In this document: one piece after another, positions 40,683 to 57,955 of the stretch | Layout of the letters: each line of letters starts with the position of its first letter | How positions within the stretch are numbered: position 1 is the first letter of the stretch | Origin: Roseimaritima ulvae | GTDB taxonomy: Bacteria; Planctomycetota; Planctomycetia; Pirellulales; Pirellulaceae | Direction of reading: 5' to 3' | DNA length: 64,000 nucleotides | Assembly (NCBI RefSeq): GCF_008065135.1 | Contig: NZ_CP042914.1 | Location: forward strand, 248,001-312,000 | Made by a program: the position numbers and the translations under genes | Notes under the pieces: model-generated | What the model saw: only the letters and a program-made list of their open reading frames with translations | The model's database searches: none | What the model was told of the DNA's origin: nothing

Positions 40683-40708
40683 CAAACGTTCTCCGGGATT
40701 CTGAGTTT

Positions 40709-40733: not shown

Positions 40734-40921
40734 GGACCGACACGATCCACCGCGAACGCGACGGTAGCTACGATGCGCAGTCCACTGGGTGCCTTCTCGA
40801 CAATGCTGGAAAACGCCTGGAAATATCGCTAGATTTGCGCATCCTCACGCGTCCCATTGGTCTCCTATTCTAGCAACGGCGAAACACAACGATAGCTCCG
40901 AAATGCAAAGGCGGCCGTTTG

Positions 40922-42052: not shown

Positions 42053-42064
42053 TCGCGTCTAATG

Positions 42065-42189: not shown

Positions 42190-42223
42190 GGGCATGCCGG
42201 AATGGCGCACGGCTTGTTCCGGC

Positions 42224-44992
42224 CTACAGCTGCCACGACTCATCCACAATCGTGACGGTTCCGGTTCGGCCGTCCATCTTGATCGATTGACCCGATTGCA
42301 GTTTGGTTGTCAGGCCTTGAATCCCGACAATCGTGGGAATGCCCATTTCACGAGCCACAATCGCCGAGTGGGAAAGTAAGCTTCCGCGTTCGACCAAAAT
42401 TCCGGCGAAGGCTGGAAAGAACGGCACCCAGCCGGGGTCGGTTCGTTCAGCCACCAAGATGTCTCCTTTGAAATAACTGTCCGTGGCCGGATCATGCACG
42501 ATTTGAGCTCGCCCGCTGACCACGCCTGGGCAACAGCCTGTGCCGGTCAATGAAGGTTCCGACGCCTGCTCATTCGAAGGCGGTAGCTGGCAAAAGTCAT
42601 TGTCGTGGTAGGCCATACCATGAGTTTCAAATCGATCGCCAGGTGGTGGCGAAAATTCTTGACGGTAGGTTTCGTATTCGCGCCGGCGGCAGTTTGCCAG
42701 GCCACGCAGGTCGGTGGACACAGCCGTGCCTTTGACAAAATCCCAAACCTCGTCGATCGTCAGATAGAAGATGTCCTCGCGCCCGTCCAGAATGTTTTCG
42801 TCGGCAAAATGCTGGCCCATCGAACGCAGCATGCGTCGCAGGATGCCGTAGATGCGGGTGCGGGCAAATCGCATGTTCTCACGATTGCGCACACCGGTTC
42901 GGGCGTTTTTCAAAACCCATCGAAACAGCAACCGTCGCGGAAACCAACTGCGCGAATTCGACAACGCTTGAGCCACTTGTTGTTCCGCTTGACTGCGAAT
43001 CGTTTGCTCACGTTGCTCCATGTCCGACAGATCATGCAGCGAAGTATTTTCGCATTGCAGGTAGCCTCGCAGGATTTTGTAGAGACGTTCGGGTCGATCT
43101 TGGTAGGAAAACGACTCCAGCTTCAACTCGTTGGCGCAGCGAAGTCCGAATTGCTCGAGGTAGATCGCCATCTGTTGATTGAATTTGCTGAACTTTGGTT
43201 CCGCGGCGATTTGCCGGGGCAGTTGCTCGAGGGGATCGTTAACGATCCGGTCGAACAGGTCCTGGTTTTCGCGGGCGGTTTGAGCCATTCGCAGCAGTAG
43301 CTTGGCGGGTTCGTCACTTTGCAGTCCGCCCTGTCCGCAAATCAACCCGTTCTGCAGCGATGCATCGCCACACCAGCGTTCACACAGTTTTCGTAAGACG
43401 CCGTAAAACACCATTACGTAAAAGTCGTTGATGATCGGCGCTTTCCAATTCCACAGCATCTTCCGCTCCATCATCTCGTACAGACGAGCCATCTCATGCG
43501 GCGGGATCACGCTGAAGTCGATCTGGGTCCACTCGTCGTAGTAGCGATAGAAATGCTGCTCGAACCGTTTGACGATCGTCTGAATTCGCAAAAAGTTCCA
43601 GCTTGAACGCAACAGCAGCTTGAGCAAGGCCGGGAGATCGACAAACCAGCGACGCAGTCGCCCTGCGGGTGGCGGTGTTTCATCGAGAAACAGCGATTGT
43701 TTCAGGCCCATCATCGATTCCATAAAGCCCCGGTTGTAGTTGTAGCCGGGGAACATCCGCACCAAGCGATACCAGTTCTTCAAGTTGTAATAGACTCGGC
43801 CATGGAACAGGCCCAGCATGTTGTCGAACGCGTCACGGTGTTGGTCGACAACTTTGGGGGAAATCCCCATGACTTCGGAAAAGCAGTGATAGACAATCGA
43901 GTAGGCATGACGAATGAAGCTGAACGTCATCGGCGTGGTCACGCCTGAATAGCTTTCGATAATATTGCTGTTGTCCCAAACGATATGATTTCCGCGTTCG
44001 GGGATCGGCGGTTGGACGACGTTTTGAGTGGGGAGCACGGTTACCGGCCGTGCCTGTAGAAAGTACCAGCGTCCATCGCCATCGAAACAGAACTCAATGT
44101 CTTGCGGGCCGCCGAGCTGCTGTTCGACATCGATCGCCGCCCGTGCGAGCTCGACCGCTTCCAAATCCGATAGCGAAGCAAGTTGTTGTGTCTCTGGGGT
44201 GACATCCGACTGTCGCAGTGGCTGCCAAGCCTTGGGACTGACGTTGCCGTCTGGTTGCCGGTTGCACGAAGGCAGTATCTGGTGGGGTTTGGCGACGATC
44301 TCCGAACGGACGGAAAAGTCACTGCGACGAACGTAAAATGAGTCGGCGGGAAAGCCTCGGCTGACCAATCCTTCGCCAATGCCGAACAATGAATGGATGA
44401 CAACCGATTCCTGGCTGCCGGTGAGGGGATCACAAGTGAAACACACACCCGAACGCGTGGCGCGGATCATCCGCTGCACAATCACGGCCATTGAAACGTC
44501 CAGCAGTGGGAGCCCGTGGGCGTGCCGGTACGCGATGGCACTGGGACTGATCGCGGACAGCCAAACCGTTTTGATGGCCGCTGCAATGGATCGATGGTCA
44601 GCAATGCCAAGCAGGCTGTCGTGGATTCCCGCGAACGAATGTTTGCCGCCGTCTTCCGCAACCGACGAGGATCGCACGGCGGCCATTTTGCCATCGCCAA
44701 TACAGTGGCAATGGACCCGCTTCAGCTCGTCCAGTAGGTCCGGTGGAAACTCAAACGCCTGGATGGGTTCAGCTAATTCGGTCGCTTGCCGCGTCGCTGA
44801 TTTTACATCGTTGACGGTGTCGATGGGACCAATCGCCCCGGTCAATACGTCCGCCGAGATCACGTAAAAAGCCGGTACACGCCAACCGGATTGTGTCAGC
44901 CGAATCAAGCCAGCCGCTTTGCCGCCGATGTGGTTCGCGTCCGCTTCGGCCGATGCATCGGTACTCGAAATGATCAATGGCAAGGGCATCAC
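42224..44992 (-). CDS. PEP-synthase/pyruvate-phosphate-dikinase-like enzyme A of the biosynthetic cluster
   Basis: The protein has 922 residues. The N-terminal ATP-grasp part (PPDK-N type) shows IGGKAAGLIRLTQSGWRVPA, VRSSSVAEDGGKHSFAG, IVQRMIRATRSGVCFTCDP and the strand DIEFCFDGDGRWYFLQARPV. The C-terminal swivelling domain has GRAQIVHDPATDSYFKGDIL and LLSHSAIVAREMGIPTIVG, with the phospho-carrier His at about 875. The middle 450 residues differ from PEP synthase and lack its PEP-binding barrel. This is the layout of rifampicin phosphotransferase and of the prodigiosin/tambjamine condensing enzymes PigC/TamQ. It starts at GTG 44992 (GTGA overlap with the upstream stop); ATG 44989 is an alternative. 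I infer an ATP-driven phosphorylation or condensation of a lipid-like substrate. Confidence 0.85.
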   Translation of the reverse strand: MMPLPLIISSTDASAEADANHIGGKAAGLIRLTQSGWRVPAFYVISADVLTGAIGPIDTVNDVKSATRQATELAEPIQAFEFPPDLLDELKRVHCHCIGDGKMAAVRSSSVAEDGGKHSFAGIHDSLLGIADHRSIAAAIKTVWLSAISPSAIAYRHAHGLPLLDVSMAVIVQRMIRATRSGVCFTCDPLTGSQESVVIHSLFGIGEGLVSRGFPADSFYVRRSDFSVRSEIVAKPHQILPSCNRQPDGNVSPKAWQPLRQSDVTPETQQLASLSDLEAVELARAAIDVEQQLGGPQDIEFCFDGDGRWYFLQARPVTVLPTQNVVQPPIPERGNHIVWDNSNIIESYSGVTTPMTFSFIRHAYSIVYHCFSEVMGISPKVVDQHRDAFDNMLGLFHGRVYYNLKNWYRLVRMFPGYNYNRGFMESMMGLKQSLFLDETPPPAGRLRRWFVDLPALLKLLLRSSWNFLRIQTIVKRFEQHFYRYYDEWTQIDFSVIPPHEMARLYEMMERKMLWNWKAPIINDFYVMVFYGVLRKLCERWCGDASLQNGLICGQGGLQSDEPAKLLLRMAQTARENQDLFDRIVNDPLEQLPRQIAAEPKFSKFNQQMAIYLEQFGLRCANELKLESFSYQDRPERLYKILRGYLQCENTSLHDLSDMEQREQTIRSQAEQQVAQALSNSRSWFPRRLLFRWVLKNARTGVRNRENMRFARTRIYGILRRMLRSMGQHFADENILDGREDIFYLTIDEVWDFVKGTAVSTDLRGLANCRRREYETYRQEFSPPPGDRFETHGMAYHDNDFCQLPPSNEQASEPSLTGTGCCPGVVSGRAQIVHDPATDSYFKGDILVAERTDPGWVPFFPAFAGILVERGSLLSHSAIVAREMGIPTIVGIQGLTTKLQSGQSIKMDGRTGTVTIVDESWQL

Positions 44993-45945
44993 AGGGTTCC
45001 GCTAAATTGGATTCCGAACGTCCGCACCAACTCGATTGCTAAAGCGATATCGAATGCCACGATGTAGACCCCCGCATAAATACTTAATCGATGAGCGGTG
45101 GTTGTGGAAGTTTGGAAACGATACTGAATGACGCCGACCAAGCAGACCATGAACAGGGCCACGATCAAACCATAAAACCAGAGGCTTAATCCTAGATGAT
45201 ACGCGACCAACGAAACCAGCACCGTGTCGATCATCCGCACGACCAGTACTAGATAAGCCGCCCCATAGGTCCCGAAGATGCGTGTGTAGGAATCCAGCCC
45301 TTCCCGTTCGTCCTCGGGTACACGGATCTTACGGGAAATCTCCCAGTTGAACGCCAGGAAGTAGTTGACGCCCGAATACAGCAGATACCAAACGGGGATT
45401 TGCCAAAGGAAACGCTTGGTCGCAAAACTCCAGATCGTCATTGCTAACAGGGGCATGATCAGCATGTGGACGGATGCGTACAACAGAAAACGTCGCTTGA
45501 GCCATTCGCCTAAGAAGAACTCTTTCAGCATTAACAGGCTAAAGCAAAATGCGATCAGCAGCGAAAGCACCGCGGCAGGTCCGGCAATCGCCGCCAAGGC
45601 AAACTCAACGGCAATCGCTGCCGCAGCGAGCCACTTCAGCTCATTCAGCGTGACCACGTTTCGCTGCAGGACTCGGTCGGGGAAATGCCGGCAATCGTCG
45701 AGGTAGTCTTTGTGGTCATCAAAGATGCGTATATGCAGAAAGAAACACAGCAGTGTCAGGCAACCACACAGCGTACTGTAGTCGTACCGCATTGGTTCGC
45801 CGGGATGGCAGAGCGCATGCGCTAAGAACTGGTTGGACGAATAAAAGCTGAGGATCAACAGGCAATTGCCGAGCAGCGGGAAACGCTCTCGCAGGTAGGC
45901 CAGCAATCGGCTGGGAAGCGCGGCGTGTTCCTCAACCCTATTCAT
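44989..45945 (-). CDS. UbiA-like integral membrane prenyltransferase-type protein
   Basis: The protein has 318 residues and about eight membrane helices. The loop after helix 2 has RIFDDHKDYLDD (Asp76, Asp77, Asp80, Asp83), the place and style of the first aspartate motif of UbiA enzymes. A second acidic loop, NWEISRKIRVPEDEREGLDS (residues 200-219), fits the second motif. UbiA enzymes join a prenyl diphosphate, or in some branches another activated group, to an acceptor within the membrane. It overlaps both neighbours by four bases. The family call is fairly likely but the motifs are not canonical, so acceptor and donor are open. Confidence 0.7.
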   Translation of the reverse strand: MNRVEEHAALPSRLLAYLRERFPLLGNCLLILSFYSSNQFLAHALCHPGEPMRYDYSTLCGCLTLLCFFLHIRIFDDHKDYLDDCRHFPDRVLQRNVVTLNELKWLAAAAIAVEFALAAIAGPAAVLSLLIAFCFSLLMLKEFFLGEWLKRRFLLYASVHMLIMPLLAMTIWSFATKRFLWQIPVWYLLYSGVNYFLAFNWEISRKIRVPEDEREGLDSYTRIFGTYGAAYLVLVVRMIDTVLVSLVAYHLGLSLWFYGLIVALFMVCLVGVIQYRFQTSTTTAHRLSIYAGVYIVAFDIALAIELVRTFGIQFSGTL

Positions 45946-47516
45946 TGTGCCAACAACTGATGCAGTGCCGGATAGTCGATTTTCGAATGGTGGCGTCGAT
46001 CAACAGGCAGCCGTTTGAGAATCCGGATGGTATCGACATTGGCGAAGGCCAGTGATTTTAACAGCGAGGCCAAATCGGGTTGCGCATTGGCATCGTCCAG
46101 CGTGACGACCAACACGCGTTCTCCGCCGTGCGAGACCATCGCGGCTTGTCCGATGCAGGGATGCCGCATGGCGGCTTGTTCGACGCCCAGGGGATACAGT
46201 GCGCCATGTTCGTCGTCGACACGCGCGGCACATCGGCCGAGCAGCCACAAGCGACCACGGTGGTCAAAGTATCCGGCGTCGCCGGTTCGGTGCCAGCAGG
46301 TTCCGCCCACTTGAAACTTGTTCTCCGCGTCCGCATCGCCATGTAAATAACCTGCCAGAACATGCGGTCCGGCGACCACGATTTCGCCTGCTGCGCCAGC
46401 GGGCTGGCAAAGCTGGTCAAAGTCGTCGGCGCTGAGTGTTCCCACTGACTGGCCCCAATGGTCACTCATGATTCGCACGTCGAGCGATTGCACTGGGCGT
46501 CCCACCAATAAGCCTTTCCCCTGCCCCATTGCGATGCGGTCGGTTGCGTCGGTATCGCTGGCCGCCACGATGCTAATCGGTTCGGCTTCGGTGGACCCGT
46601 AGACAACGGTCACTTCGGCCGCTGGTGCGGTTACCGCAAAACGCTCCAGCAACCGCGGCGGCACCGGCCCGCCACCGGTGAAGATTTGTCGCAAGGATCG
46701 AAGTCGAGGATCGTTGGAATTACAGTCGGTAAGCAACCGGTTGAAAAACGCGGGCGAGGCAGCGATACGGTTCGGTTGGTGTTGGTGGATCTGTTTTAAG
46801 ATGCGATCCGGTGAAATCTCGGACGGTCGTCGTAGGTCACCATCGGCAATCACACTGGTCACCCGCGAAGCGAGGTTGGCCAAGACAAAAATCGGCATGG
46901 TAACCAGTTCGACCTGCCCCGCCGCTAAGCCGAAGCTCTGTTCAATCGCCTGATGTTGTGCCAGCAGAAACCGGTGCGTGCGGATGGTCGCCTTGGGCAA
47001 TCCCGTGCTGCCGCTGGTGAAGCTGGCCAGGGCCGGTGTTTCCGCGTCGCAGTCGTGGACAAATCCATCGTCGCTCCAAGACTGGGCTTTCTCAAAGGGT
47101 CGCGCGAAGGGAATGCGTCGGCCGATCGACCATTTACGGGGAATGCGTCGCAACGTCGGTGACACCAGTCGCAACAAATGGGCTTTGGAGCTTGCCATCA
47201 ACGCTTGGGGCGGAAGCAGTTCGCAGCACCGATCGATGTAACGCCAACCGGCCGACGGGTCGACAAACATTGCCGTCATCCCGCTACGCAAAATGGCCGC
47301 CAACGCGGTGTACAGTTCCACGGACATCGGATGAAACAACAACACCGTGTCGCCGGCCTTGAGTCCTGACTGTCGCAGCATGGTTGCCGTGCGTCCGATC
47401 GCTTGATCGAATTCGTGATAGGTCGTGCAGCGACTGCGTCCCCGGTACCGGTCGATGATTGCGACGTCCTGGGGAAATTGTTTCGCGTGTTGCTGGACGA
47501 TCTCCGTAATGTTCAT
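45942..47516 (-). CDS. AMP-dependent acyl ligase, OleC-like
   Basis: The protein has 524 residues. It has the adenylation motifs FTSGSTGLPKATIRTH (about 166-181), YGSTEAEP (306-313), WHRTGDAGYFDHRGRLWLLG and the C-terminal catalytic lysine in HHSKIDYPAL (about Lys512). The stretch TAMFVDPSAGWRYIDRCCEL and the YGSTEAEP form recall OleC (beta-lactone synthetase) and related fatty-acid ligases rather than acetyl-CoA synthetase. It probably activates a fatty or beta-hydroxy acid as acyl-AMP. It overlaps the GNAT gene upstream and the UbiA-like gene downstream by ATGA. No acyl carrier protein gene is visible in the cluster. Confidence 0.88.
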   Translation of the reverse strand: MNITEIVQQHAKQFPQDVAIIDRYRGRSRCTTYHEFDQAIGRTATMLRQSGLKAGDTVLLFHPMSVELYTALAAILRSGMTAMFVDPSAGWRYIDRCCELLPPQALMASSKAHLLRLVSPTLRRIPRKWSIGRRIPFARPFEKAQSWSDDGFVHDCDAETPALASFTSGSTGLPKATIRTHRFLLAQHQAIEQSFGLAAGQVELVTMPIFVLANLASRVTSVIADGDLRRPSEISPDRILKQIHQHQPNRIAASPAFFNRLLTDCNSNDPRLRSLRQIFTGGGPVPPRLLERFAVTAPAAEVTVVYGSTEAEPISIVAASDTDATDRIAMGQGKGLLVGRPVQSLDVRIMSDHWGQSVGTLSADDFDQLCQPAGAAGEIVVAGPHVLAGYLHGDADAENKFQVGGTCWHRTGDAGYFDHRGRLWLLGRCAARVDDEHGALYPLGVEQAAMRHPCIGQAAMVSHGGERVLVVTLDDANAQPDLASLLKSLAFANVDTIRILKRLPVDRRHHSKIDYPALHQLLAQ

Positions 47517-48520
47517 GGCGACAACTCCAAGGACTTGCCGAACAAGCCGTAGCGGCGGATGGGAGTCGCGTAACGTCGGCTGATGTTTTGCACCGCCCCT
47601 GCCTCGCGGACCAACGCATGGATGCCGTATTTAAATCCTTGGGCAGCCGCCCGATGTTGGGTTTCTTCCAGCATCACTTGGCCCAGTCCGGCAAATTGAC
47701 GATCGGGGAGCCTGCCGAATGTCTTGATGATCACGGTATTCACGTTCTCGCCGCGTCGCAATTGAAGCAGGTCTGGAACGGCGAAGCAAAACCCGATGAC
47801 TTCACCGCCGCGTTCGGCCAGCAGGATCAGGTCGGTGGGAACGGAATGTTGAAATGGCCGGTACAGGTCGATGAACGCGGCTTCGGAAATAGGGCTGAAG
47901 TACTGATGGTCTTGAAAGGCGATTCGGGCCACAGAATAAATTTGTTTCATGTCCGCTTCGTACGCATCCATGACTCTCAGGCGGATTCCCTGTTGATGTA
48001 TGCGTTCGCAGGTGCGGGCGAGTCGTGGTGATTGGATAGTGAGGTCTTCGACGAACGCCGAAAAATAGCTGGCCACCTGTTGGAAGCCACTTGCCAGAAA
48101 TGCCTCGGGAGCGGAGGGTGGATTTACCGGTTCGAACAAGAAGGGAGGGCGTTCGCTGGATTCGATCACGAATCGATAGTCGTGCCAAGTGTTTTGGTTC
48201 ATGGGGCCGAGTACTTGCCGCGCCCCCTCGGCTGCCAATTTTCGACAGGCGAAGTCCAGCAAATCCGCAGTGGCCTGTTCGTCGGCTGCGGCGTAGTGAC
48301 CAATAACTCCGGCGGGACGTCCGTCAACGATGGGCGTTTCCCGCCACCACAGCGAACAGCGAGCCGTGATCGTTTGATTTTGGATCTGTACCCAATGGGC
48401 GTCCGGTCGGTGAACCAACAACTGGTCAGCATCGAAGACCGGCAGGCGGTCGTCTTGTTCCCATTGCTGGTACTGGTCAGCCGATTCGATTTGCACGATT
48501 TCTCGGTTGGCGGTTTGCAT
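47513..48520 (-). CDS. GNAT-like N-acyltransferase
   Basis: The protein has 335 residues. The segments VLGPMNQNTWHDYRFV, FLFEPVNPPSAPEAF and the C-terminal QFAGLGQVMLEETQHRAAAQ followed by GFKYGIHALVRE, with VIGFCFAVPDLLQL before them, are like two-lobed GNAT proteins that occur near lipid and surface-polymer genes. The acetyl-CoA signature Q/R-x-x-G-x-G/A is recognisable only as FAGLGQVML. It is the first gene of the downstream coupled run (GNAT, ligase, UbiA-like, dikinase A). It may acylate the amine made by the aminotransferase, which is inference. Confidence 0.72.
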   Translation of the reverse strand: MQTANREIVQIESADQYQQWEQDDRLPVFDADQLLVHRPDAHWVQIQNQTITARCSLWWRETPIVDGRPAGVIGHYAAADEQATADLLDFACRKLAAEGARQVLGPMNQNTWHDYRFVIESSERPPFLFEPVNPPSAPEAFLASGFQQVASYFSAFVEDLTIQSPRLARTCERIHQQGIRLRVMDAYEADMKQIYSVARIAFQDHQYFSPISEAAFIDLYRPFQHSVPTDLILLAERGGEVIGFCFAVPDLLQLRRGENVNTVIIKTFGRLPDRQFAGLGQVMLEETQHRAAAQGFKYGIHALVREAGAVQNISRRYATPIRRYGLFGKSLELSP

Positions 48521-48547
48521 GGTGAATATTCAAGAATCGTGTTAGTC

Positions 48548-48603
48548 GTAGCATAGGCTTCCAGACTGTGAAGGAGCATTCACAGGCTGGAAGCCTATGC
48601 TAC
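48548..48603. repeat. 25-bp inverted repeat splitting the biosynthetic cluster
   Basis: GTAGCATAGGCTTCCAGACT with GTGAA (48548-48572) and TTCACAGGCTGGAAGCCTAT with GCTAC (48579-48603) form a 25-bp stem with a single mismatch and a 6-base loop. It lies in the only real gap of the cluster, directly after the MFS stop codon. It could be a terminator or attenuator on the minus strand, although there is no T run. The sequence resembles a repeat I recall from planctomycete genomes. Confidence 0.8.
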
Positions 48604-50160
48604 TTAAGTTTGTGAACACCGCCGAATCAACACTGCAGTGGCTAGGGTACTTGCGCCGACGCCAACAGCGAACAGGCACGAGACCAACCGAAACGCATCG
48701 ACGTAGGCCAGCCGAATCGCCTGTTCGATGGCCGTGGTCAGTGACTCGCTCAGTCCTGGCGGAGGGGCTGCGTCGGCAAACATGCGGGATTGTTGTTCCA
48801 GAGTTTTCATGGCGGGTGCATCCAGCGAAAAAGCTTCGCCCCGTTGCAGCAAAGATCCTCGGAACTGAATGATTGCAATCGGACCAAGCAATGCCAAACC
48901 GAGAACGCTGGAGAGGCGCGAAAGGGTGGAGTTAATCCCGGAGGCGATTCCCAATTGACTCGCTGGCACACTGTTCATGATCGTGGTACTGAGTGGTGCG
49001 GCACTCAAGCCCATCGCTGTGCCAATCAGGACCAGGGCCGGGAAAAAGCTCGTCCAGTAATCGGCCGGCCCCGAAGTAAGCGATGGATAGGCGAATAATG
49101 CGAACCCGATCGTCGCCAGCGTGCCCGCCATCGTCAACGGAAGCCGCGGACCGTGACGATCGACCAGATGCCCGGCCAGCGGAGATATCAAAATCACCAA
49201 GACCATGACCGGCAATTGCGCCAGGCCCGCCGTGGTGGAGGGATAATTCTGAACTTGGATCAGGTTGAGAGACAAGAAGAACAACATGGCGTATAAGCCG
49301 GAGTAAAAACAGAGCGACAACTGACAGGCCGCAGCAAAGGTCCGATTGGTGAACAAACTCATCGGCAGCATCGGGTGGGTAACACGCCGTTCGTTCCATA
49401 CGAACGCCGCCATACAACTACATCCGACCAGTATCGAGCCAACCACGAAGGGATCCTTCCAGTCCCGCGAGGCAACCTCGATCAGGCCCAGGTTCAAACA
49501 GAACAGTCCCACGATGCTAAACGCGGCACCCGCATAGTCTAGAGACCACGACGGCGGTTTTTCTTCGCCGTTTTGTTGGGGTTTTAAACACAGGATTCCA
49601 ATCGCCGCCAAGCCAATGGGAAGATTGATAAAAAAGATCCCCCGCCACCAACCGGCGTCCGCTAAGGCTCCTCCTAAAATCGGTCCCAACGCGGTCATCA
49701 CGACGCTACAAGCGGACCAGATGCCAATCGCTCGCCCGCGTCGAGAGGGTTCAATGCTGCTGGATAGCATCGCCAGGCTGCCCGGGATCATCAACGCCGC
49801 GCCCAAGCCTTGGAAGCCACGTGCGATGATCAGGTGCGTTGTATTCAGCGACAGTCCACCCGCCAGCGAAGCTGTCACGAACAGGCTAATTCCGGAGGTG
49901 AAAACGCGTTGGCGCCCTTGGCGGTCGCCCAACGCACCGCCGAATAATATCAACGCCGCCGTGACCACGGTATAAGCGTTGACGATCCACAGCACCTGCC
50001 TGCCGGTTGCGCCAAATCCCTCTTGGATAGCAGGGATCGCAACGTTCAGTGCCGTGGCATCGATAAACGCCATTCCGGACGCCATGATCGAGGCCAGCAG
50101 AACCCAGTGTTCGTGCGAGCCGCGGCGCGAGGACTGTTTGTCTGGGGGGGCTAATTGCAT
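48604..50160 (-). CDS. MFS multidrug-type exporter (DHA2/EmrB-QacA group)
   Basis: The protein has 518 residues from the ATG at 50158-50160, which overlaps the end of the P450 gene by 10 bases; the longer frame from 50322 is discarded. About fourteen hydrophobic helices are present. The first helices carry the family pattern MAFIDATALNVAIPAIQEGF, VNAYTVVTAALILFGGALGD and the loop GDRQGRQRVF. It closes the six-gene run that begins with the aminotransferase-reductase fusion and is the obvious candidate to export the pathway product. Confidence 0.92.
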   Translation of the reverse strand: MQLAPPDKQSSRRGSHEHWVLLASIMASGMAFIDATALNVAIPAIQEGFGATGRQVLWIVNAYTVVTAALILFGGALGDRQGRQRVFTSGISLFVTASLAGGLSLNTTHLIIARGFQGLGAALMIPGSLAMLSSSIEPSRRGRAIGIWSACSVVMTALGPILGGALADAGWWRGIFFINLPIGLAAIGILCLKPQQNGEEKPPSWSLDYAGAAFSIVGLFCLNLGLIEVASRDWKDPFVVGSILVGCSCMAAFVWNERRVTHPMLPMSLFTNRTFAAACQLSLCFYSGLYAMLFFLSLNLIQVQNYPSTTAGLAQLPVMVLVILISPLAGHLVDRHGPRLPLTMAGTLATIGFALFAYPSLTSGPADYWTSFFPALVLIGTAMGLSAAPLSTTIMNSVPASQLGIASGINSTLSRLSSVLGLALLGPIAIIQFRGSLLQRGEAFSLDAPAMKTLEQQSRMFADAAPPPGLSESLTTAIEQAIRLAYVDAFRLVSCLFAVGVGASTLATAVLIRRCSQT

Positions 50161-51512
50161 GGAATCGGTTTCAGTTTCATCCTCAATTCGCCAGCGTGTC
50201 GAAGCGTAATTCCCGGTAGCGTCTTGATCGTTTGACCCGGTACCACGCTCAACTGAAACCGGGACAGCGTTCGGGCGACGATGTGAGTGGCGACCGTCAG
50301 AGCCATGTGTTCGCCGATGCACTTGTGCGGCCCGATACCGAAAGGAAGGTACGCATGGCGAGGTCGACTTGCGATGTTGGGGGGCGTGAACCTGGTTGGG
50401 TCAAATCGCTCGGGTTCGGACCAAAACTCCGCGTGTCGGTGCAGCAGGTACGGCGAGGTCAGCACCATGGAACCGCGCGGGATGGCAAATCCACCAATCC
50501 GATCGTCGGCCATGGCTCGTCGCTCAATAATCCAAATCGACGGATATAATCGAATCGCCTCCGAAAACGCCATTTGAGTTTGAGTCGCATTGCGTGTGGA
50601 TTCAAACTGCACGCCCTCTTCGTGCAGCTTTAGTTCGACTTCGGGATGTTGCGAAATCAGGAAAAAGGTCCAGGTCAGCGCATTGGCGGTCGTTTCGTGA
50701 CCTGCCAACAACAGCGTCACGCAGGCATCGCGGAGCTCTTGATCCGACAAGCCCGCCTCGGCTTGCGTCTGGTGGGCTGCTAACAGACGGGACAATAGAT
50801 CGTCATGCTGCGACCCGCCCGATCGCCGTTGTTCGATGATCCGATAGACGATTCGATCGATGTCTTGCAGCGCTCGGCGAAAACGAGGCCGGTGAAATCG
50901 TGGTGAGATGGACGCGAGATCAACAGGTGCCTCAATGCGCCGCCAGGTGTCTTCTAGAATCACGGCCAGTGCGCGTTCGATGACTTCCGAGTCCTTTTCG
51001 ATCTCGGCGGTGAACAAAATGCGAGCCGCAATCGTCATTGTCAAACGCATCATCTCCGAAACAATGGCGATGTCTTGTTGACGGCTAGCCAAGTCCTGCC
51101 AGCGGTTTAACGTGTCTCCGATGACATCATCAATCGTCGGTCCGAGTGACTCGAAAAACCGCGGCTGGAACACGGGCTGAATGAGTCGACGATGTCGCAG
51201 CCATGCCGGGCCCTCAGACGAAAGCAGGCTGTCGCCACAGGTGGCGCGGATCCGCGCGACGCTGCGTGTTTGTTTGTCGTACCGACCAACCGCTCCCGCC
51301 AGTATGTGTTCAGCGTATTCGGGTCGATTCACTAGATGCGCGGTAATCGGCCCGAAACGCAACCGCACGATGTCGCCGTGATCGTGTACCGCCTGGGTTA
51401 GGAATCCGATCGCGTCTTGTTGGAAGTCGGCCAAGTTGCCCCAGAGGAAACTTCCGCGTGGTCCGGGAGCTTTGGTAGGTGCGGCCGCTGATGGAGTGGC
51501 TTGACCGGTCAT
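50151..51512 (-). CDS. Cytochrome P450
   Basis: The protein has 453 residues from the ATG at 51510-51512, which overlaps the sulfotransferase stop by ATGA; MGLLG at 51527 is an alternative. It has the oxygen-binding helix LLLAGHETTANAL, the ExxR motif EAIRLYPSIW, and the haem loop PFGIGPHKCIGEHMAL with the axial cysteine at about 398. It looks like the CYP102/CYP4-like fatty-acid hydroxylase group by its LRLYPS-type motif, though the substrate is not certain. Within the cluster it may hydroxylate the lipid chain, giving the site for sulfation by the next enzyme (inference). No ferredoxin partner gene is adjacent. Confidence 0.95.
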   Translation of the reverse strand: MTGQATPSAAAPTKAPGPRGSFLWGNLADFQQDAIGFLTQAVHDHGDIVRLRFGPITAHLVNRPEYAEHILAGAVGRYDKQTRSVARIRATCGDSLLSSEGPAWLRHRRLIQPVFQPRFFESLGPTIDDVIGDTLNRWQDLASRQQDIAIVSEMMRLTMTIAARILFTAEIEKDSEVIERALAVILEDTWRRIEAPVDLASISPRFHRPRFRRALQDIDRIVYRIIEQRRSGGSQHDDLLSRLLAAHQTQAEAGLSDQELRDACVTLLLAGHETTANALTWTFFLISQHPEVELKLHEEGVQFESTRNATQTQMAFSEAIRLYPSIWIIERRAMADDRIGGFAIPRGSMVLTSPYLLHRHAEFWSEPERFDPTRFTPPNIASRPRHAYLPFGIGPHKCIGEHMALTVATHIVARTLSRFQLSVVPGQTIKTLPGITLRHAGELRMKLKPIPCN

Positions 51513-52642
51513 ACCGAGTAACCCCAACGCTGAAAACTGCGGGACCAGTGCGTTGCCACGAGCTCGCGACTATGTTCGTCGAGCGTGGGGAAACGATTGG
51601 GTTGATAGTCCGCCAGCGAGTCGACGTAGGTTCGCAATTTCGGTTCGAACGACTCAAAATCCGGCAGCGATAATTGCTCATAAATTTGTCGCGTCTGGCC
51701 AACCGGGTCCGCGACCAGATCGTCGAAACGGACTTCACAAAAACGGTCCGGAGCGATCAAGGCCAGGTCTTCGAAGTAGGCATCGTACATCGTGGTGTAT
51801 CGCTGCAAAATATCGTCATCCATGGTCGATAGATCTGGGGCCTGCAGGTACGTGTACCATCCGGCGGTATCAAAGAAATGTTTCTGCGATTGAAAAACTC
51901 GATAGGGATCGCGATGAATGTGAACAAATCGAGCGTCCGGAAACATCTCCAGCAGTAGCCGGATCCGAGCCGTATGCGGAGGCGATTTCAGCAGCAGACT
52001 GCGCGGATTTTGTAGCGTCAGTTTCTTGCAGAACCAAATAAACGCTTGCTGCCACGCTTCGATGGTCGGTCGGGGCACGCCGTGAAAAGTCAGGTACTTG
52101 GCGTAGTTGTCGATGTGGTGTGGAAAGCTGATACCGAGATAGGGTGAGCAGAGCGTGAGCAACAACGGAGCGAACTCGTCTTCCTGCGGTGTGTTGAAGC
52201 TGAGTTGCATGTTGTCCATCGGACGCGTCGGCGGCACGAGTCGAGAACCAAACCGTTTGACGACTTTTTCGGTCGTCAAAAACGTACGCGGGTTAACGAC
52301 TTGGTAGGTGTTGGCAAAGTTGAATTGGGTGTCGTGTTGAGCCAGTAGGTAATGCAGTAGCGTTGTGCCGCTGCGCCAATGGCCCAGCAAGAACAGGGGG
52401 GGCTGGGTCAGTTCCGTGCGTTCAATCGCATCACCAAAACGCCAGCGTTCGATCAGGCTGCTGCACGAATTGATGACGCTGGACGCCGTTATGAAGGCGG
52501 CTCGATGCCAATACGCGGCGGAGACTTGGAAGCGATTCTCGCGGAGCAAGCGATACCATGCCCCGCTGGTAATGCCGGCGAGATAGTTATGCCCCAAGCT
52601 CCAGCGATGCTTCAGCGGCGTGGACGTGCTGCGTCGGATCAT
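51509..52642 (-). CDS. PAPS-dependent sulfotransferase
   Basis: The protein has 377 residues from the ATG at 52640-52642 (ATGA overlap with the upstream stop); the frame open to 52807 runs into the neighbouring gene. The 5'-phosphosulfate loop LLGHWRSGTTLLHYLL (85-100) and the 3'-phosphate-binding segment FVHIHRDPYRVFQSQ (239-253) are clear, as is KSPPHTARIRLLLE between them. It is of the Sulfotransfer_3 type seen in lipid and glycan tailoring. In this cluster it would sulfate a hydroxyl group of the product. Confidence 0.93.
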   Translation of the reverse strand: MIRRSTSTPLKHRWSLGHNYLAGITSGAWYRLLRENRFQVSAAYWHRAAFITASSVINSCSSLIERWRFGDAIERTELTQPPLFLLGHWRSGTTLLHYLLAQHDTQFNFANTYQVVNPRTFLTTEKVVKRFGSRLVPPTRPMDNMQLSFNTPQEDEFAPLLLTLCSPYLGISFPHHIDNYAKYLTFHGVPRPTIEAWQQAFIWFCKKLTLQNPRSLLLKSPPHTARIRLLLEMFPDARFVHIHRDPYRVFQSQKHFFDTAGWYTYLQAPDLSTMDDDILQRYTTMYDAYFEDLALIAPDRFCEVRFDDLVADPVGQTRQIYEQLSLPDFESFEPKLRTYVDSLADYQPNRFPTLDEHSRELVATHWSRSFQRWGYSV

Positions 52643-53304
52643 GCGGGATTCGACTTGCTCTTGTTCATGATTTTCATCAGCAGCATCCCTGCCAGCAGTC
52701 CGACCACCGCCGCGATCCCGCCGACCCAGACAAGCGACCCCTTGGCCGCATCGAGGACCGGATTGTCGAGAATATTGCCGGAGACGTGGTAGGCGGCCAG
52801 TTTCCATTGGCCGTCCTTTTTTACAAGCGTAGCAGTCCAGCGATTCTCTAAGTCAAATTCCATGCCCATGATCTTGTAGTGCGGTACCGACTTGCCAACC
52901 GCAATCGCGGTATGGCCACCGTGCAGGACGGAAATGTCATCGGCCGCCGGTCGAACGGTGTATCCCTGAAAAACCTTGCTGTCTCCCGAACTCATCTCTG
53001 CCATAAAGGCTTCAAGTCCCTCTCGGCCTCGGGCGACTTGATTGTTCTGCCAAGTCGTGACGATTTGGTCATCCACATGTTGCAATTGGGTTTCGACATC
53101 ATTCTTGAGCACCGCTTCGGTCAGGATTTCTCTCAGTTCGCGAAGCTGTTCATGGTCGGCTGAGGCGTCATCCGTTGCTGCTTCTGCTGTGTCTGGTTGG
53201 GTGGCGGCGGGAGCATCGGGCGGAGTGTCTTGCGACCAAGCGAGTGTCGTGATTGCGACTGTCATCGACAAAAACATCAGGACGGTTGGATAGAATTTCA
53301 TCAT
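52639..53304 (-). CDS. Exported NTF2/SnoaL-like (DUF4440-type) protein with C-terminal membrane anchor
   Basis: The protein has 221 residues. A signal peptide (MKFYPTVLMFLSMTVAITTL, cleavage near AWSQ) is followed by an acidic Ala/Asp-rich linker and an NTF2-fold-like domain with the family pattern DDQIVTTWQNNQVARGREGL and WTATLVKKDGQWKLAAYHVS. A final helix (GSLVWVGGIAAVVGLLAGML) and a basic tail anchor it in the membrane. It overlaps both neighbours by four bases. It is unusual to see an exported NTF2-like protein inside a biosynthetic run; it may bind the product at export or catalyse a late step. Confidence 0.78.
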   Translation of the reverse strand: MMKFYPTVLMFLSMTVAITTLAWSQDTPPDAPAATQPDTAEAATDDASADHEQLRELREILTEAVLKNDVETQLQHVDDQIVTTWQNNQVARGREGLEAFMAEMSSGDSKVFQGYTVRPAADDISVLHGGHTAIAVGKSVPHYKIMGMEFDLENRWTATLVKKDGQWKLAAYHVSGNILDNPVLDAAKGSLVWVGGIAAVVGLLAGMLLMKIMNKSKSNPA

Positions 53305-55463
53305 GCTTCTCTTTGGTTAAGGGGTTCCACTCGGCCTCGGCCACCATCGATCAAAATCATCTCGCCCGCAGCGATGGTTGTCATTGCGTTGCGCACATTA
53401 AGCACGGCGGGGATACCGTATTCACGGCACAGGATCGCGGCATGAGAGAGCATGCCGCCTGTTTCGGTAACGACCCCAGCGGCGCGGTCGAGCACAGCCG
53501 TCCAACCGGGATCGGTGAACGGGCAAACCAGAATTTGGCCCCGTGGCATGTTCGCCGCTTGCTCGACATTTTTGGCAAGGAAGGCCGTGGCCGTGCAGGT
53601 TCCTGGGCTGACGCCAATGCCGCGGAGGTCACCCGCCGCGGACGGTACGTCGGCGGGTGCCGGTCCGCCGATCTCGTTGGGCGCTGGGAAGCAGCGATAG
53701 CTATCGTAGATCTCGCGATTGGTTTCGATGTGGTCTCGTCGATCGGCAAAGATGTCTTGAAAGGTTTGGAAGAAAATCGAATCTCCCAAGTCCCGTTGAT
53801 GTCCGAGCTCGAGTGCATGTTGTCGTATGTGGTAATAGATTTGGCTGGATACATCACGCAGTTCTTCGCGTAGCCACAGGAAATGCCGCAGTGTCGCCAG
53901 CTTTCGTTCAAACGTCCGACGCTTCCAGCGAGGCGTTTGCTGTAACGTTTCGGCATACGCTGTATGGTAGGCCTGGATGGGGTTTCGGCCACCGGAATCC
54001 GGCAGGTCAACAAGCATATTGTGGACAAACGTTTGATCTTCGTCCCAGCGGGGGAAGATCACATCCAGGCCGTTTCGGTAGTGATGGCGATACGTGTTAG
54101 TAACTTCAGCGATCGATTCAGGTGTCCGCTGCGGCAACGATTGCACGGCACGAACGGGCGCCATATGACGCAACGGGGGAAGCCCGGCAACCAGTGCTCC
54201 ACAGTCGGCGTTGGGAAAAGAACTGACAAAATCGAGTTTTGCCAAGGAGGCCGCAAAGATGGTCCTGAAGTAGGTGTACTCGACTTCGGCGTAGACCTGT
54301 TCGATTAGTTGGCGGAAAGAATGTTCGGTCCGCGGCATGTCGTGCCATGGAGAAAAACTTCCACTGTCTGCCGAGTCCAACAGGGCTTCGGCAGCTTGTT
54401 TTTGAGATCGCAGGAATCGTTTCACCGCCAGCACGGTCGGGATCGCTCTTAGTACGCGACCCACCGTAACCGGAGTCACCTTGCCATCGCCGGTGTAGTT
54501 AACTTGAATGCTTAAGTCGTCATCAAACTCGCGTTCTTTGTAACCCGGCAGTTGGGCGAGACAGTCTTTCAGTGCGGCGAGATTCCAATACGGCCGGCCG
54601 AAAAACATTTTTGCGGCTTGGAAGTCATGTTTCCATAAGCGAAGCTGACGCAGGGTGTCTTTGAGGGAACAATCCCAGATGGATTCATACAGCGACCACA
54701 TCAACGGACTGCAGACCGTGCTGGAGACGCCCCCATCGCGAAAGTCCGCAGTGGTCCATTCACCGGCTTCGCTGGAAAAGGTGATGCGAGTTATGGGCCG
54801 CGCCTGCAGCACCCAAATCCTGTCCTCGGCGATCGCAAATTCGATGTCCTGCGGTGTGCCGAAATGACGCTGGATGCGACGAGCGAGCGATTCGATACCG
54901 CGCCTGTGTTTGCGTAATAACGGATGGTCTGCTGGCAGCGGTGATTGCTGGCCGGAAAGCAACGCGTCGGCCGTGCCCTCGCAGGCTTCGATGACCATCT
55001 GGTCCGATCCGGTGGTTGGGTTGACCGTAAACACCACGCCGGCCAGCTCGGGTTCAATCATTCGTTGCACAATCACGTGCATCTTCAATTGATCAAACGG
55101 CACCGCGTGTTTGCGGCAGTAGTCCGCTACGGAGGGTTGCCGCACCGAATCATGACAGCGCTCAACGGCTTGCGCGACCTGTTCGAGGGTGTTCAGGTTC
55201 AGGTAGCTTTCAAATTGACCCGCGAAAGATACCGCGTCGCCGTCTTCACCCGTGGCCGAGGAACGAACCACCAGTGGCGTACCCAATCGCGCAACCGTTG
55301 CGGAAAGATTGTCAGGAGAGACAACAAACGGAGGTACATCAAAACCCGCGGCTTGCAGTGATTGCAGGTTGGCGGCTTTGCCCCCGATGTCGGAGGGCAA
55401 CGAAGCATAGGGCGGCTGGTGATCTGGAGTGGTTGGGGATTGTGGAAGTTGCTTTACAGGCAT
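53301..55463 (-). CDS. PEP-synthase/pyruvate-phosphate-dikinase-like enzyme B of the biosynthetic cluster
   Basis: The protein has 720 residues from the ATG at 55461-55463, which overlaps the upstream stop by 10 bases; the frame open to 55847 lies over the neighbour. The N-terminal ATP-grasp has SDIGGKAANLQSLQAAGFDV, VVRSSATGEDGDAVSFAGQF, VQRMIEPELAGVVFTVNP and DIEFAIAEDRIWVLQARPI. The swivelling domain has GILVCPFTDP-like RGQILVCPFTDPGWTAVLD and GGMLSHAAILCREYGIPAVL, with His at about 674. It is shorter than enzyme A by about 200 residues but has the same order of parts, so the two are distant paralogues. By analogy with PigC/TamQ it may condense an amine with a carbonyl partner using ATP; this is inference. 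Confidence 0.85.
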   Translation of the reverse strand: MPVKQLPQSPTTPDHQPPYASLPSDIGGKAANLQSLQAAGFDVPPFVVSPDNLSATVARLGTPLVVRSSATGEDGDAVSFAGQFESYLNLNTLEQVAQAVERCHDSVRQPSVADYCRKHAVPFDQLKMHVIVQRMIEPELAGVVFTVNPTTGSDQMVIEACEGTADALLSGQQSPLPADHPLLRKHRRGIESLARRIQRHFGTPQDIEFAIAEDRIWVLQARPITRITFSSEAGEWTTADFRDGGVSSTVCSPLMWSLYESIWDCSLKDTLRQLRLWKHDFQAAKMFFGRPYWNLAALKDCLAQLPGYKEREFDDDLSIQVNYTGDGKVTPVTVGRVLRAIPTVLAVKRFLRSQKQAAEALLDSADSGSFSPWHDMPRTEHSFRQLIEQVYAEVEYTYFRTIFAASLAKLDFVSSFPNADCGALVAGLPPLRHMAPVRAVQSLPQRTPESIAEVTNTYRHHYRNGLDVIFPRWDEDQTFVHNMLVDLPDSGGRNPIQAYHTAYAETLQQTPRWKRRTFERKLATLRHFLWLREELRDVSSQIYYHIRQHALELGHQRDLGDSIFFQTFQDIFADRRDHIETNREIYDSYRCFPAPNEIGGPAPADVPSAAGDLRGIGVSPGTCTATAFLAKNVEQAANMPRGQILVCPFTDPGWTAVLDRAAGVVTETGGMLSHAAILCREYGIPAVLNVRNAMTTIAAGEMILIDGGRGRVEPLNQREA

Positions 55464-57955
55464 GGTTCCACCACCGTCGATGAGGATGCACGGGTGCCTT
55501 GCTGGGACCGTAACGTAAACCCGTGCTTGGCCGCGATTTGTGCCATGCGTTGTGCGCTTTCGACCGAGGTCGGCGTGACGGAGGGGGAGTGTCGTCGGCC
55601 TTCGAGTCCGAGCAGCAGTCCCTCGGCCATGCAGCCGTAGGTCCGACCGGACGGCAACGGAAATCCAGGGATTCTTAAGCATTCGTGATGCGGTAGGTCG
55701 ACCGTTCCTCCATCCACGATGGTGATGTTTGGATACCTGTCGGTAGCCACTGGAAGCAACGCACCGGGTATCGAAACGTCGCAAACGATGGCATTCGGGT
55801 TCAGGCTTTCGAGGCTGACCGAGGCGGCGATTTGGTTGGTCGCGCACAGCACGACATCCGCTTGTCCAATCATTTGGGCACTTGTTGCCACCGACGTTCC
55901 AGGAATGTCACGGGCTACCTGTTGCAGGCGATCCAACGAGTCACGGCGCTGGCTGCCAAACAACAGGCAACGCCCAAACTTGGCGGCTAGCAGGGCGGCA
56001 CAGGTGCGGCCGATCTCGCCTGCCCCACCAATCACGGCCAACGTCAACCCCCGGCCATTCAGCGAGCGTCGTGTCAGTTCCAAACGGATAGCCTGCTCGG
56101 CGAGCGCGGCGGTGTAGCTAGCTCCGGTGGTAATGAGCAGATCGCGAGGCTGAAGGGACTTGCCACGCTGCGTGACGATGGACGTGAATTGTCCCAACGA
56201 AACAACGTCGCAATGAATCGCGGACGCCGTTTCGACCGCTCGTTCGACGAGTGCCGTGGCGGTTCCGCTTCGCGCGTGTTTCAGCATCCAGCGAGACGTA
56301 ACCGGCAGCAGAATGGGATGCAGGCGAACGGTGTTTCCATGGCGAGAGCGAATGTCGACCGTGTCCATCATCAGCGGCTCACACAGTCGGCTCCAGCGTT
56401 CACTGAAAGCACCTTGTTCTGCCCGCGACCAGTCCGCCAGTGCCGGTTCCAGGTGCCCGATGTTCGACTCGTCGACAAGATGGAAAATCCATCCAACTCG
56501 AGCCGGCGAGTTGGGAGTGGATGCTTCCGTCGAGGTGTCGAAGAACGGATTGCCGCGATAGGAAAAGATGGCGACATCGGTTAGACGCGGTTCTTTGAGA
56601 GGCTTGGGCGGGGATGACGTCGGCCGTGGTTTTACGGAAAGAAAGCGAGTCAAACCAGCCGTGTCGTCCGCGGAGAGTTTTTCGCAAACGTCTGTCAATG
56701 CGGAAACGAAACGATCCAGTTGCCCACGGTCCACAGTGAGCGAAGGTTGGATTCTCAGCGTGAATGAATCGCTCAGCGTGGGGGCCACGCGGATCTGGTG
56801 TTGATGCAGCAAATAGCTCGCGATCATCGGGCCGAGCAGTTCCCGATCCACCAGATGGTTCAGCAAAAAGCTCTGTGGCTTGGCCCGTCGGTTCAGCTCG
56901 ACGCCGAGCATCAAGCCGCGACCGCGAACATCGCGGATGGTTTCCGGGAAGCGTTGCTGTACCGTGGCCAGGGCGCCGAGTAGATAATCGCCTTGCTGCT
57001 TGCAGCGTGCGAGTGCGTCGTCACTCAATAATTCCAGAACCTTCAGCGCGATCGCAGACGAAAATTCATCATCCGCGAAGGTGCTGCTGTGCAGCAGATC
57101 GAAGTCCTCCCGGTAGCGAGCACGGTCGATCAATAACGCCGCTATTTTCGCTAATCCTCCGCCCAGTGCTTTGGACAGCAGGATGTAGTCGGGCCGTACA
57201 CCCAGGCTGTGGCTGGCAAGGAATTCGCCGGTGCGTCCCAACCCGGTCTGGCATTCGTCAGCGATCAGAGGAATATTTCTTGACGCGCACAACTCCGCCG
57301 CACGCTGCAGGTAGCCGGCATCCAAGGGCCGGACGCCGGCTTCGCCCTGAATCGGTTCGTACAGCACTCCGGCTAGATCGGTGCATTGTTCGAAAGTCGT
57401 TTCGAGTTGTAGGAGATCGTTTGCATCGACACGCCGGAGTTCCAGGTTGCCATGGCCAAATGGTGTTCGGAAGCGTGGGTTCGAGGACGCGTGAAGGGAT
57501 CCGAGCGTTTTTCCATGAAAGCCGCCGTTCAACGAAATCAGCGTACGGCCACCCGTTTCCAGCATGGCATGTTTCAGGGCCGCCTCCACGGCTTCGGTGC
57601 CTGAATTGGCAAACACGGCGCAGAAGTCCCCTCGAAGTCGAGCGTTCAGCACGTTTGCCAATTGTTGGGCACCCTGCCGGAGGGAGCCCTGAGCATGGTT
57701 GACGTTTCCGGATTGGAGGAATTCCGTCGCTGCGGCCAGTACCCCAGGATGATTGTGTCCCAGCAGCAGCGTGCCGTACCCGCCAACAAGGTCCAAGACT
57801 TGAACTTCAGCATCCCCGCTATCCCGATAGAAAAGGAAGTCCCCCGAGGCCCGATGGTAGGTGAGGTCCATGCCCATCGCTGACAACAGGTTGTGCAGTC
57901 CGGGCTTGTGGCGAACCGTGAATCGGGCAGCTGATTTATGGCGATCAAATTCCAT
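55454..57955 (-). CDS. Class III aminotransferase fused to an acyl-ACP-reductase-like domain
   Basis: The protein has 833 residues. Residues 1-430 are a PLP class III aminotransferase: NSGTEAVEAA (118-127), IADECQTGLGRTGEF with Asp233, and the Schiff-base lysine in LLSKALGGG (Lys262). Residues 485-815 resemble cyanobacterial acyl-ACP reductase: GWIFHLVDESNIGHLEPALA, SLGQFTSIV, TTGASYTAAL, the Rossmann loop VIGGAGEIGR (641-650) and TYGCMAEGLLLGLEG. In the segment aligned with the cyanobacterial PCLxIDGGYP I see NAIVCDVSIP, so the cysteine is three residues later (Cys725). The fusion predicts reduction of an acyl thioester to an aldehyde and transamination to a terminal amine in one polypeptide, as in TamH of tambjamine synthesis. 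It heads the six-gene run. Confidence 0.85.
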   Translation of the reverse strand: MEFDRHKSAARFTVRHKPGLHNLLSAMGMDLTYHRASGDFLFYRDSGDAEVQVLDLVGGYGTLLLGHNHPGVLAAATEFLQSGNVNHAQGSLRQGAQQLANVLNARLRGDFCAVFANSGTEAVEAALKHAMLETGGRTLISLNGGFHGKTLGSLHASSNPRFRTPFGHGNLELRRVDANDLLQLETTFEQCTDLAGVLYEPIQGEAGVRPLDAGYLQRAAELCASRNIPLIADECQTGLGRTGEFLASHSLGVRPDYILLSKALGGGLAKIAALLIDRARYREDFDLLHSSTFADDEFSSAIALKVLELLSDDALARCKQQGDYLLGALATVQQRFPETIRDVRGRGLMLGVELNRRAKPQSFLLNHLVDRELLGPMIASYLLHQHQIRVAPTLSDSFTLRIQPSLTVDRGQLDRFVSALTDVCEKLSADDTAGLTRFLSVKPRPTSSPPKPLKEPRLTDVAIFSYRGNPFFDTSTEASTPNSPARVGWIFHLVDESNIGHLEPALADWSRAEQGAFSERWSRLCEPLMMDTVDIRSRHGNTVRLHPILLPVTSRWMLKHARSGTATALVERAVETASAIHCDVVSLGQFTSIVTQRGKSLQPRDLLITTGASYTAALAEQAIRLELTRRSLNGRGLTLAVIGGAGEIGRTCAALLAAKFGRCLLFGSQRRDSLDRLQQVARDIPGTSVATSAQMIGQADVVLCATNQIAASVSLESLNPNAIVCDVSIPGALLPVATDRYPNITIVDGGTVDLPHHECLRIPGFPLPSGRTYGCMAEGLLLGLEGRRHSPSVTPTSVESAQRMAQIAAKHGFTLRSQQGTRASSSTVVEPCL

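Follow-up and report, generated by a model that had tools for sequence, protein, structure and literature searches.

A conserved Roseimaritima ulvae operon and its convergent DUF3419 gene: candidate pathway for an amine-bearing lipid

The closest described systems are alkaloid pathways, rifampin phosphotransferase and a betaine-lipid enzyme. TamA activates the fatty acid of the tambjamine pathway and TamT is a predicted dehydrogenase (PMC5939613; PMC6667630). TamH has an N-terminal transaminase and a C-terminal thioester reductase; TamA and TamH turn fatty acids into amines in vitro, and the TamH reductase domain yielded no amine from acyl-CoA (PMC9594044). KecF of the koreenceine pathway is described as an N-terminal aminotransferase with a C-terminal region that has acyl-acyl carrier protein (ACP) reductase features (PMC6498172), and BtaA makes diacylglycerol-O-homoserine from diacylglycerol and S-adenosylmethionine (SAM) (PMC10685587). 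We analysed a window of 64,000 nucleotides from Roseimaritima ulvae (GCF_008065135.1, contig NZ_CP042914.1, positions 248,001 to 312,000, forward strand), in which ten minus-strand genes at 42224-57955 are one operon, P0001 to P0010 (Table 1; the dikinase-like P0002 and P0010 are called dik2 and dik1), with a DUF3419 gene convergent to dik1. A preliminary description had given the operon a tambjamine-like logic without pyrrole genes. We find that this comparison holds for a single module but fails as an overall framework. Together, the operon and the convergent DUF3419 gene could well direct the synthesis of an unusual lipid that bears an amine, a reading drawn from sequence for which belief and doubt are about balanced.

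A Pfam scan finds all ten genes present with the families first given to them: PPDK_N with PEP-utilizers twice, UbiA, AMP-binding, a weak GNAT, MFS, P450, Sulfotransfer_3, SnoaL/DUF4440 and Aminotran_3. With the start codons that we chose as likely, the junctions from P0001 to dik1 are overlaps of 10, 4, 4, 4 and 10 bases, an interval of 83 bases that parts the MFS gene from the GNAT gene, and overlaps of 4, 4 and 4 bases; the 4- or 10-base overlaps reported for the whole operon hold at eight of nine junctions, the gap before the GNAT gene being the single exception.

The same gene set recurs in relatives. All ten genes lie in the same order and strand, with 49-71% protein identity, on a 38,315-base contig of genome G252 (G and L numbers are our handles for genomes and loci); a Planctomycetaceae metagenome-assembled genome (MAG), G684, has ten genes split by a contig break (L124 and L023), a Planctomycetales MAG, G685, has ten on a 17,249-base contig (L025 and L110, treated as one), and a Rubripirellula MAG, G686, has eight, divided between the fragments L123 and L026, in which the P450 and MFS genes were not seen. 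Together with the R. ulvae genome these are the five window-type genomes, and in four of them DUF3419 is convergent with dik1, the G686 contig stopping within dik1. When the seven open reading frames (ORFs) outside 40919-57955 were compared with six relative loci, the sole match was a sulfatase at two loci (22-26% identity). The borders of the cluster are P0001 and the DUF3419 gene, because the seven flanking ORFs, bar this sulfatase match, are not conserved, and by conservation the DUF3419 gene is the eleventh gene of the cluster. Nor is the operon a chance arrangement, since its order is kept in G252 at 49-71% identity while the flanking ORFs are not. The ten genes stay together where they are present, though such genomes are few: a close P0001 orthologue occurs in two of 296 genomes of the order (R. 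ulvae and G252), and seven further ones match at E 1e-61 to 1e-88.

P0001 combines an aminotransferase and an acyl-thioester reductase in the manner of TamH and PigE, with both domains and their key motifs. Its N-terminal part matches PigE (4ppm), CrmG and putrescine aminotransferase, and over its last 388 residues the matches are to the N-terminal region of PigE (E 5.6e-15) and to a long-chain acyl-ACP reductase (6jzu, E 8e-10). Lys262 of the SK motif, which by family we take to be the pyridoxal phosphate-binding residue, the GxxGxxG motif and Cys775 are retained in all seven aligned homologues. Against the PigE equivalog model P0001 scores 354.6 bits, short of the cut-off of 850, and the reductase domain that PigE carries first is last in P0001. 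KecF has the same two-domain order as P0001; its cluster differs in being a polyketide-fed alkaloid cluster, for which the available part of PMC6498172 names no dikinase, UbiA or DUF3419.

Housekeeping phosphoenolpyruvate (PEP) synthase and pyruvate phosphate dikinase have a PEP/pyruvate-binding domain C-terminal to the phosphohistidine domain. Neither dik1 nor dik2 has one; Pfam finds only PPDK_N and PEP-utilizers in each, the latter ending 10-11 residues before the C terminus. Judged by domain content, both have the layout of rifampin phosphotransferase (RPH) and PigC and are not of the housekeeping type, which is the outcome that the preliminary description needed. The RedH and PigC profiles align with dik1 end to end (356.9 of 1350 and 323.8 of 1300 bits) and the RPH profile gives 287.8 of 999 bits, so that all three cut-offs are missed; a PEP synthase model reaches 253 bits, also under its cut-off, and the nearest group is 'PRK06241.2-2' (795 of 883 bits). 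For dik2 the scores are 194.9 (RedH) and 209.7 bits (PigC), again under the cut-offs. The best fold match of the dik1 AlphaFold model (mean pLDDT 82, pTM 0.60) is RPH (5hv1, E 1.9e-41, TM 0.48), with which dik1 shares the ATP-grasp, middle and C-terminal phosphohistidine domains; it differs in its biosynthetic gene context and is only 21% identical to 5hv1 when the two are aligned by Foldseek. The sole other PPDK_N gene of the genome lies at 2.6 Mb.

The dik2 gene adjoins the P0001 homologue in all five window-type genomes. Because a TamH-type P0001 stands beside a PigC/RPH-type dikinase in these five and in four of six further places (below), this module can fairly be read as converting an acid through an aldehyde to an amine, with a phosphoryl-transfer enzyme driven by ATP. 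To this extent the tambjamine logic survives: the tambjamine YP1 (tam) pathway (TamA, TamH, TamQ) likewise has acid activation, an aminotransferase-reductase protein and a PigC-type enzyme, and the prodiginine enzymes PigE and PigC/RedH belong to the same domain families. The logic fails in that the PigE, PigC and RedH cut-offs are missed by far, no ACP was seen, and the wider core mostly lacks an amine gene; unlike the YP1 pathway, the window cluster has two dikinases, UbiA, DUF3419, a P450, a sulfotransferase and a GNAT protein. As first reported, the 4-methoxy-bipyrrole-carbaldehyde half has no recognisable gene either in the operon or in the eight other ORFs scanned at the locus (the DUF3419 gene and seven nearby). 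Activation had been credited to TamT, which is an error, TamA being the activator (PMC5939613; PMC6667630).

The amine was said to need another partner. A candidate is supplied by the DUF3419 gene, as the source of a SAM-derived aminocarboxypropyl group; it lies just outside the interval first considered and was missed there. Its product belongs to PF11899 (222.9 bits against a cut-off of 28.2), the Pfam family of BtaA. The genome holds a second, stronger DUF3419 copy at G000:C1:5142182-5143330 (L088; 389.7 bits), which overlaps a methyltransferase gene and is likely with it a true btaA-btaB pair. The window copy has no adjoining methyltransferase, and no BtaB-type N-methyltransferase partner was found among the locus ORFs scanned. 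As it is just 23% identical to the likely btaA copy, it may act on an acceptor other than that of BtaA. Homologues of phosphatidylserine (PS) decarboxylase lie immediately beside DUF3419 at L043:13550-14665 (Ignavibacterium record) and L119:16998-17906 (genome of a Methylomirabilis record), which fits decarboxylation of an amino-acid head group.

In the proposed pathway, judged by homology, the AMP ligase P0008 would activate a long-chain acid, the P0001 reductase domain would take the thioester to an aldehyde, and its aminotransferase domain would turn the aldehyde into a primary amine. The dikinases may phosphorylate a carbonyl or hydroxyl group from ATP via phosphohistidine: dik2, linked to P0001, would offer its phosphorylated group for condensation with the amine, and dik1, linked to UbiA and DUF3419, for the step of those two enzymes. 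UbiA might attach a prenyl-type chain, DUF3419 might transfer the 3-amino-3-carboxypropyl group of SAM to an oxygen or nitrogen of the lipid, and the GNAT protein might N-acylate. The P450 is predicted, again by homology, to add a hydroxyl and the sulfotransferase a sulfate, so that the product, which the EmrB-type MFS pump would export, is probably sulfated.

Part of this gene set is much more widespread. A scan of GTDB genomes with two exact peptide patterns from the dik1 alignment, which is not a census, turned up 26 loci, from records that carry the labels Planctomycetes, Riflebacteria/Ozemobacter, Acetothermia, Cyanobacteria, Methylomirabilis, Bacteroidia/Saprospiraceae, Ignavibacterium and Chthoniobacterales, with one Erysipelotrichia and one plain 'bacterium'. 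By our own profiles DUF3419 lies within 2.7 kb of dik1 at 20 of the 26 and UbiA within 1.4 kb at 19; of the six without DUF3419, L026, L042, L044 and L045 end inside or just past dik1. Conversely, a UbiA pair searched against 392 genomes of the phylum matched 18, that of the window included, and 13 of 18 loci outside the window carry dik1 over threshold in the DNA scanned. The cluster content of the Erysipelotrichia locus (L036, SABV01000024.1) resembles that of the Riflebacteria clusters, and its label may be wrong. An apparent GNAT-UbiA fusion at L071 was discarded, its two tblastn matches (L067 coordinates) lying in different frames.

We counted genes at 32 loci with dik1 and UbiA (the window included; L016 and L042 were dropped as lying on the contigs of L024 and L080, and L088 as a control), using profile-score thresholds set by hand and profiles built partly from the same loci. 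DUF3419 is present at 21, an AMP ligase at 15 and fused to a 3-hydroxy-3-methylglutaryl-CoA (HMG-CoA) reductase homologue (HMGR) at three more, HMGR at nine, a NAD_binding_4 reductase at two and a P0001-type protein at two, or six when a homologue on adjoining or separate DNA is counted for four window-type loci; no locus has two of these three reductase kinds together in the DNA scanned. Matches to the P450, sulfotransferase, MFS and NTF2 genes are confined to window-type loci (4 of 32). Since most UbiA-dikinase loci show no amine-forming gene (six of the 32 do), the core of dik1, UbiA and DUF3419 is not built around an amine. In the distant planctomycetes L076, L085 and L087, one strand carries GNAT, AMP ligase, HMGR, UbiA, dik1, DUF3419 and a membrane protein, which is the window order once HMGR is taken out and DUF3419 reversed.

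These counts bear on a different, possible but doubtful, role for the dikinases, that of RPH-type phosphotransferases making phospho-intermediates (e.g. lipid-alcohol phosphates, or diphosphates for UbiA) or inactivating the product in self-protection, the product then being a polar membrane lipid formed without amine condensation. That dik1 finds its closest solved fold in 5hv1, and is tied to UbiA and DUF3419 at loci without an amine gene, speaks for such a role, as does a membrane protein weakly like phytol/dolichol kinase beside DUF3419 at five of the 32 loci; RedH and PigC outscore RPH on dik1 (357 and 324 against 288 bits) over a full-length alignment, and dik2 invariably keeps company with the amine-forming gene in the window type, which favours the condensation reading. 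The membrane protein is conserved next to DUF3419 at L073:5100-6416, L076:4738-6123, L085:889-2220, L086:1538-2896, L087:16237-17619 and L041:3186-3869. Its likeness is to phytol/dolichol kinase and DUF92 families, and its identification as a VTE5/VTE6-like kinase is weak (Pfam E 0.077 for DUF92, 0.29 for CTP_transf_1); one DUF92-bearing protein, which we assume to be a kinase, is matched by hhalign at 95% in its N-terminal part.

Twelve of the 16 core genomes tested have HMGR: in ten it lies at the core locus (split over contig ends in two of these), and in G676 and G682 it is on another contig. HMG-CoA synthase was found in none of these 12 at E up to 0.001, and the two matches obtained, over the cut-off in G545 and under it in G680, come from genomes that lack HMGR. 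DXR of the methylerythritol phosphate (MEP) pathway is present in 11 of the 12, and in 13 of 14 genomes examined. Mevalonate supply is therefore an unlikely role for the core HMGR in 11 of the 12 genomes; in G681, the genome of L045, DXR gave no match and another HMGR-family protein is present, and mevalonate use is possible. Given HMG-CoA synthase in none of the 12 and the MEP enzyme in 11, the core homologue is probably, by this gene content, a thioester reductase for another acyl group. All eight aligned homologues keep the (N/S)(I/V)E, GDKK, GQD and AH motifs, which we take to be catalytic, and none has the Lys that presumably holds the HMG carboxylate, found in the (Y/L)KNL segment of the solved 6hr7 and 8ecg (seen aligned to L076 and L035 only). 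HMGR homologues adjoin AMP ligases or UbiA, or are fused to them, at L035, L039, L040, L045, L073, L076 and L084-L087, the fusions to AMP ligase being in L035, L039 and L040. With an HMGR homologue or a NAD_binding_4 reductase used elsewhere in place of P0001, the constant step appears to be reduction of the activated acid, with the amine as a variant of it.

Outside the window type, P0001-like genes were found at six places in 23 genomes. Four are beside dikinase-like genes (L111, L112/L071, L114/L119, L115), and L113 and L117, both of G443, have no such neighbour. L119 is the window's central set in another phylum: UbiA, PS decarboxylase, DUF3419, dik1, a P0001 homologue and a second dikinase follow one another on one strand, with an MMPL gene adjoining. 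Its genome, G679 of the Methylomirabilis record, also has the HMGR-type L040, and each of the two loci has UbiA, dik1 and DUF3419. In two Riflebacteria genomes a radical SAM gene lies upstream of a dik2-like/P0001-like pair (L118:15021-16382, L120:740-2101).

We tentatively propose, at less than even confidence, that the UbiA-dikinase-DUF3419 core makes an undescribed class of bacterial lipids found in many phyla. A long-chain acid would become an alcohol (by a repurposed HMGR) or an amine (by a TamH-type protein, as in the window) and be joined, through a phosphohistidine dikinase, to a SAM-derived 3-amino-3-carboxypropyl head and a prenyl-type chain; in some groups the PS-decarboxylase homologue would go on to decarboxylate the head, and MMPL/LolA-like proteins would carry the lipid to the outer membrane. 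In the lipid context of the loci, all seven MMPL genes scanned were confirmed by Pfam, as were LolA-like proteins in L035 and L040; L043 has DAGK and PS decarboxylase, and L046 a CDP-alcohol transferase. 'Barrel' genes were labelled by eye, and Pfam gave no match for them. We found no published description of this pathway or core in the open-licence literature. If correct, the proposal would mean an undescribed lipid pathway spread over several phyla, an HMGR homologue acting outside isoprenoid synthesis, a BtaA relative using an acceptor other than diacylglycerol, and PigC-type dikinases taking part in lipid assembly. The window operon would be a compact example of it, for which an amine- and sulfate-bearing product is predicted, and G252 would offer the same genes from a second source.

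Several observations weigh against the proposed pathway and its extension to the core. The DUF3419 gene is convergent with the operon in the window and therefore not on its transcript, and UbiA has no known acceptor at the locus. P0008 has only an AMP-binding domain, and no ACP gene or domain was seen at the locus in a narrow search (ORFs of 55-150 codons at 38-62 kb, one ACP-like motif pattern); because TamH gave no amine from acyl-CoA, this leaves a gap in the amine step. Elsewhere, L027 and L031 have room for DUF3419 and none was found by our profiles, which also found no UbiA near dik1 at L028, L030, L047 and L048, and GNAT is seen at just 13 of the 32 core loci. P0001-like proteins occur without UbiA, dikinase or DUF3419 matches at L018-L022, L121 and L122, and the second dikinase of L119 scores slightly higher with the dik1 profile (419) than with that of dik2 (380). 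Window-type loci, which have an MFS pump, showed no MMPL or LolA-like gene, and the HMGR and HMG-CoA synthase counts come in part from incomplete MAGs, several of the 12 HMGR-bearing genomes being of this kind.

Patchy distribution, with the close P0001 orthologue so rare in the order, and the restriction of the P450, sulfotransferase, MFS and NTF2 genes to the window type would also be expected if HMGR- and P0001-bearing clusters were unrelated and merely shared enzyme families, the window operon being a one-off secondary metabolite cluster. We think this unlikely in view of the order GNAT, AMP ligase, UbiA, dik1 common to both types, with DUF3419 behind dik1, and of the two types held by G679. 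A true tambjamine- or prodiginine-like alkaloid, in which a TamQ-like enzyme condenses the alkylamine with an aromatic aldehyde supplied by genes in another part of the genome, is very improbable despite the TamH architecture and the PigC/RedH similarity, as no bipyrrole or ACP gene is among the ORFs scanned, scores are far under the family cut-offs, the core lacks an amine gene in several phyla, and UbiA, DUF3419 and the sulfotransferase would have no role.

Table 1. The ten operon genes and the convergent DUF3419 gene, in window coordinates
Gene	Assignment	Coordinates	Strand	Basis
P0001	Class III aminotransferase (N-terminal) and acyl-ACP-reductase-like domain (C-terminal), TamH/KecF-type order	55454..57955	-	Pfam Aminotran_3, profiles, structure matches, motifs
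dik2 (P0002)	PPDK_N ATP-grasp and phosphohistidine-type domain, PigC/RPH-type layout	53301..55463	-	Pfam, profiles; likely start ATG 55463
P0003	SnoaL/DUF4440 (NTF2-like)	52639..53304	-	Pfam; signal-peptide-like N terminus and C-terminal hydrophobic segment by eye
P0004	Sulfotransferase (Sulfotransfer_3)	51509..52642	-	Pfam; start ATG 52642
P0005	Cytochrome P450	50151..51512	-	Pfam; start ATG 51512; FGIGPHKCIG present
P0006	DHA2/EmrB-type MFS exporter	48604..50160	-	Pfam; TIGR00711 264 bits, cut-off 230; start ATG 50160
P0007	Tandem GNAT-fold transferase	47513..48520	-	Weak Pfam and AlphaFold fold match
P0008	AMP-forming acid ligase	45942..47516	-	Pfam AMP-binding; nearest models PRK09274 and OleC, under cut-offs
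P0009	UbiA-family membrane prenyltransferase homologue	44989..45945	-	Pfam; Asp76, Asp80, Asp84 invariant 16/16
dik1 (P0010)	Core dikinase, ATP-grasp, helical middle and phosphohistidine-type domain	42224..44992	-	Pfam; His875 invariant 19/19
DUF3419	BtaA family, homologue of SAM-dependent 3-amino-3-carboxypropyltransferase	40919..42052	+	Pfam, conservation; convergent with dik1

Among the remaining parts, P0007 passes the GNAT family cut-off narrowly (20.9 against 20.7 bits), and its AlphaFold model (mean pLDDT 88) matches tandem GNAT structures. The FGIGPHKCIG segment of P0005 is, we assume, the haem-Cys motif. P0008 reaches 366 of 478 bits with PRK09274 and 217 of 900 with OleC, and beta-lactone synthesis of the OleC kind was set aside. 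Stieleriacine clusters, which make N-acyl dehydrotyrosines, are defined by a NasY synthase with ThiF and nitroreductase genes (PMC12479983); this assignment was rejected, as Pfam found neither ThiF nor nitroreductase in the operon or the eight other ORFs scanned, P0007 not having been directly compared with NasY. Next to the DUF3419 gene, at 37860-40685, lies a 941-codon gene for a multi-domain cytochrome c, which has no match in the relative loci searched, and a minus-strand ORF of 1811 codons occupies 24829-30264 of the window.

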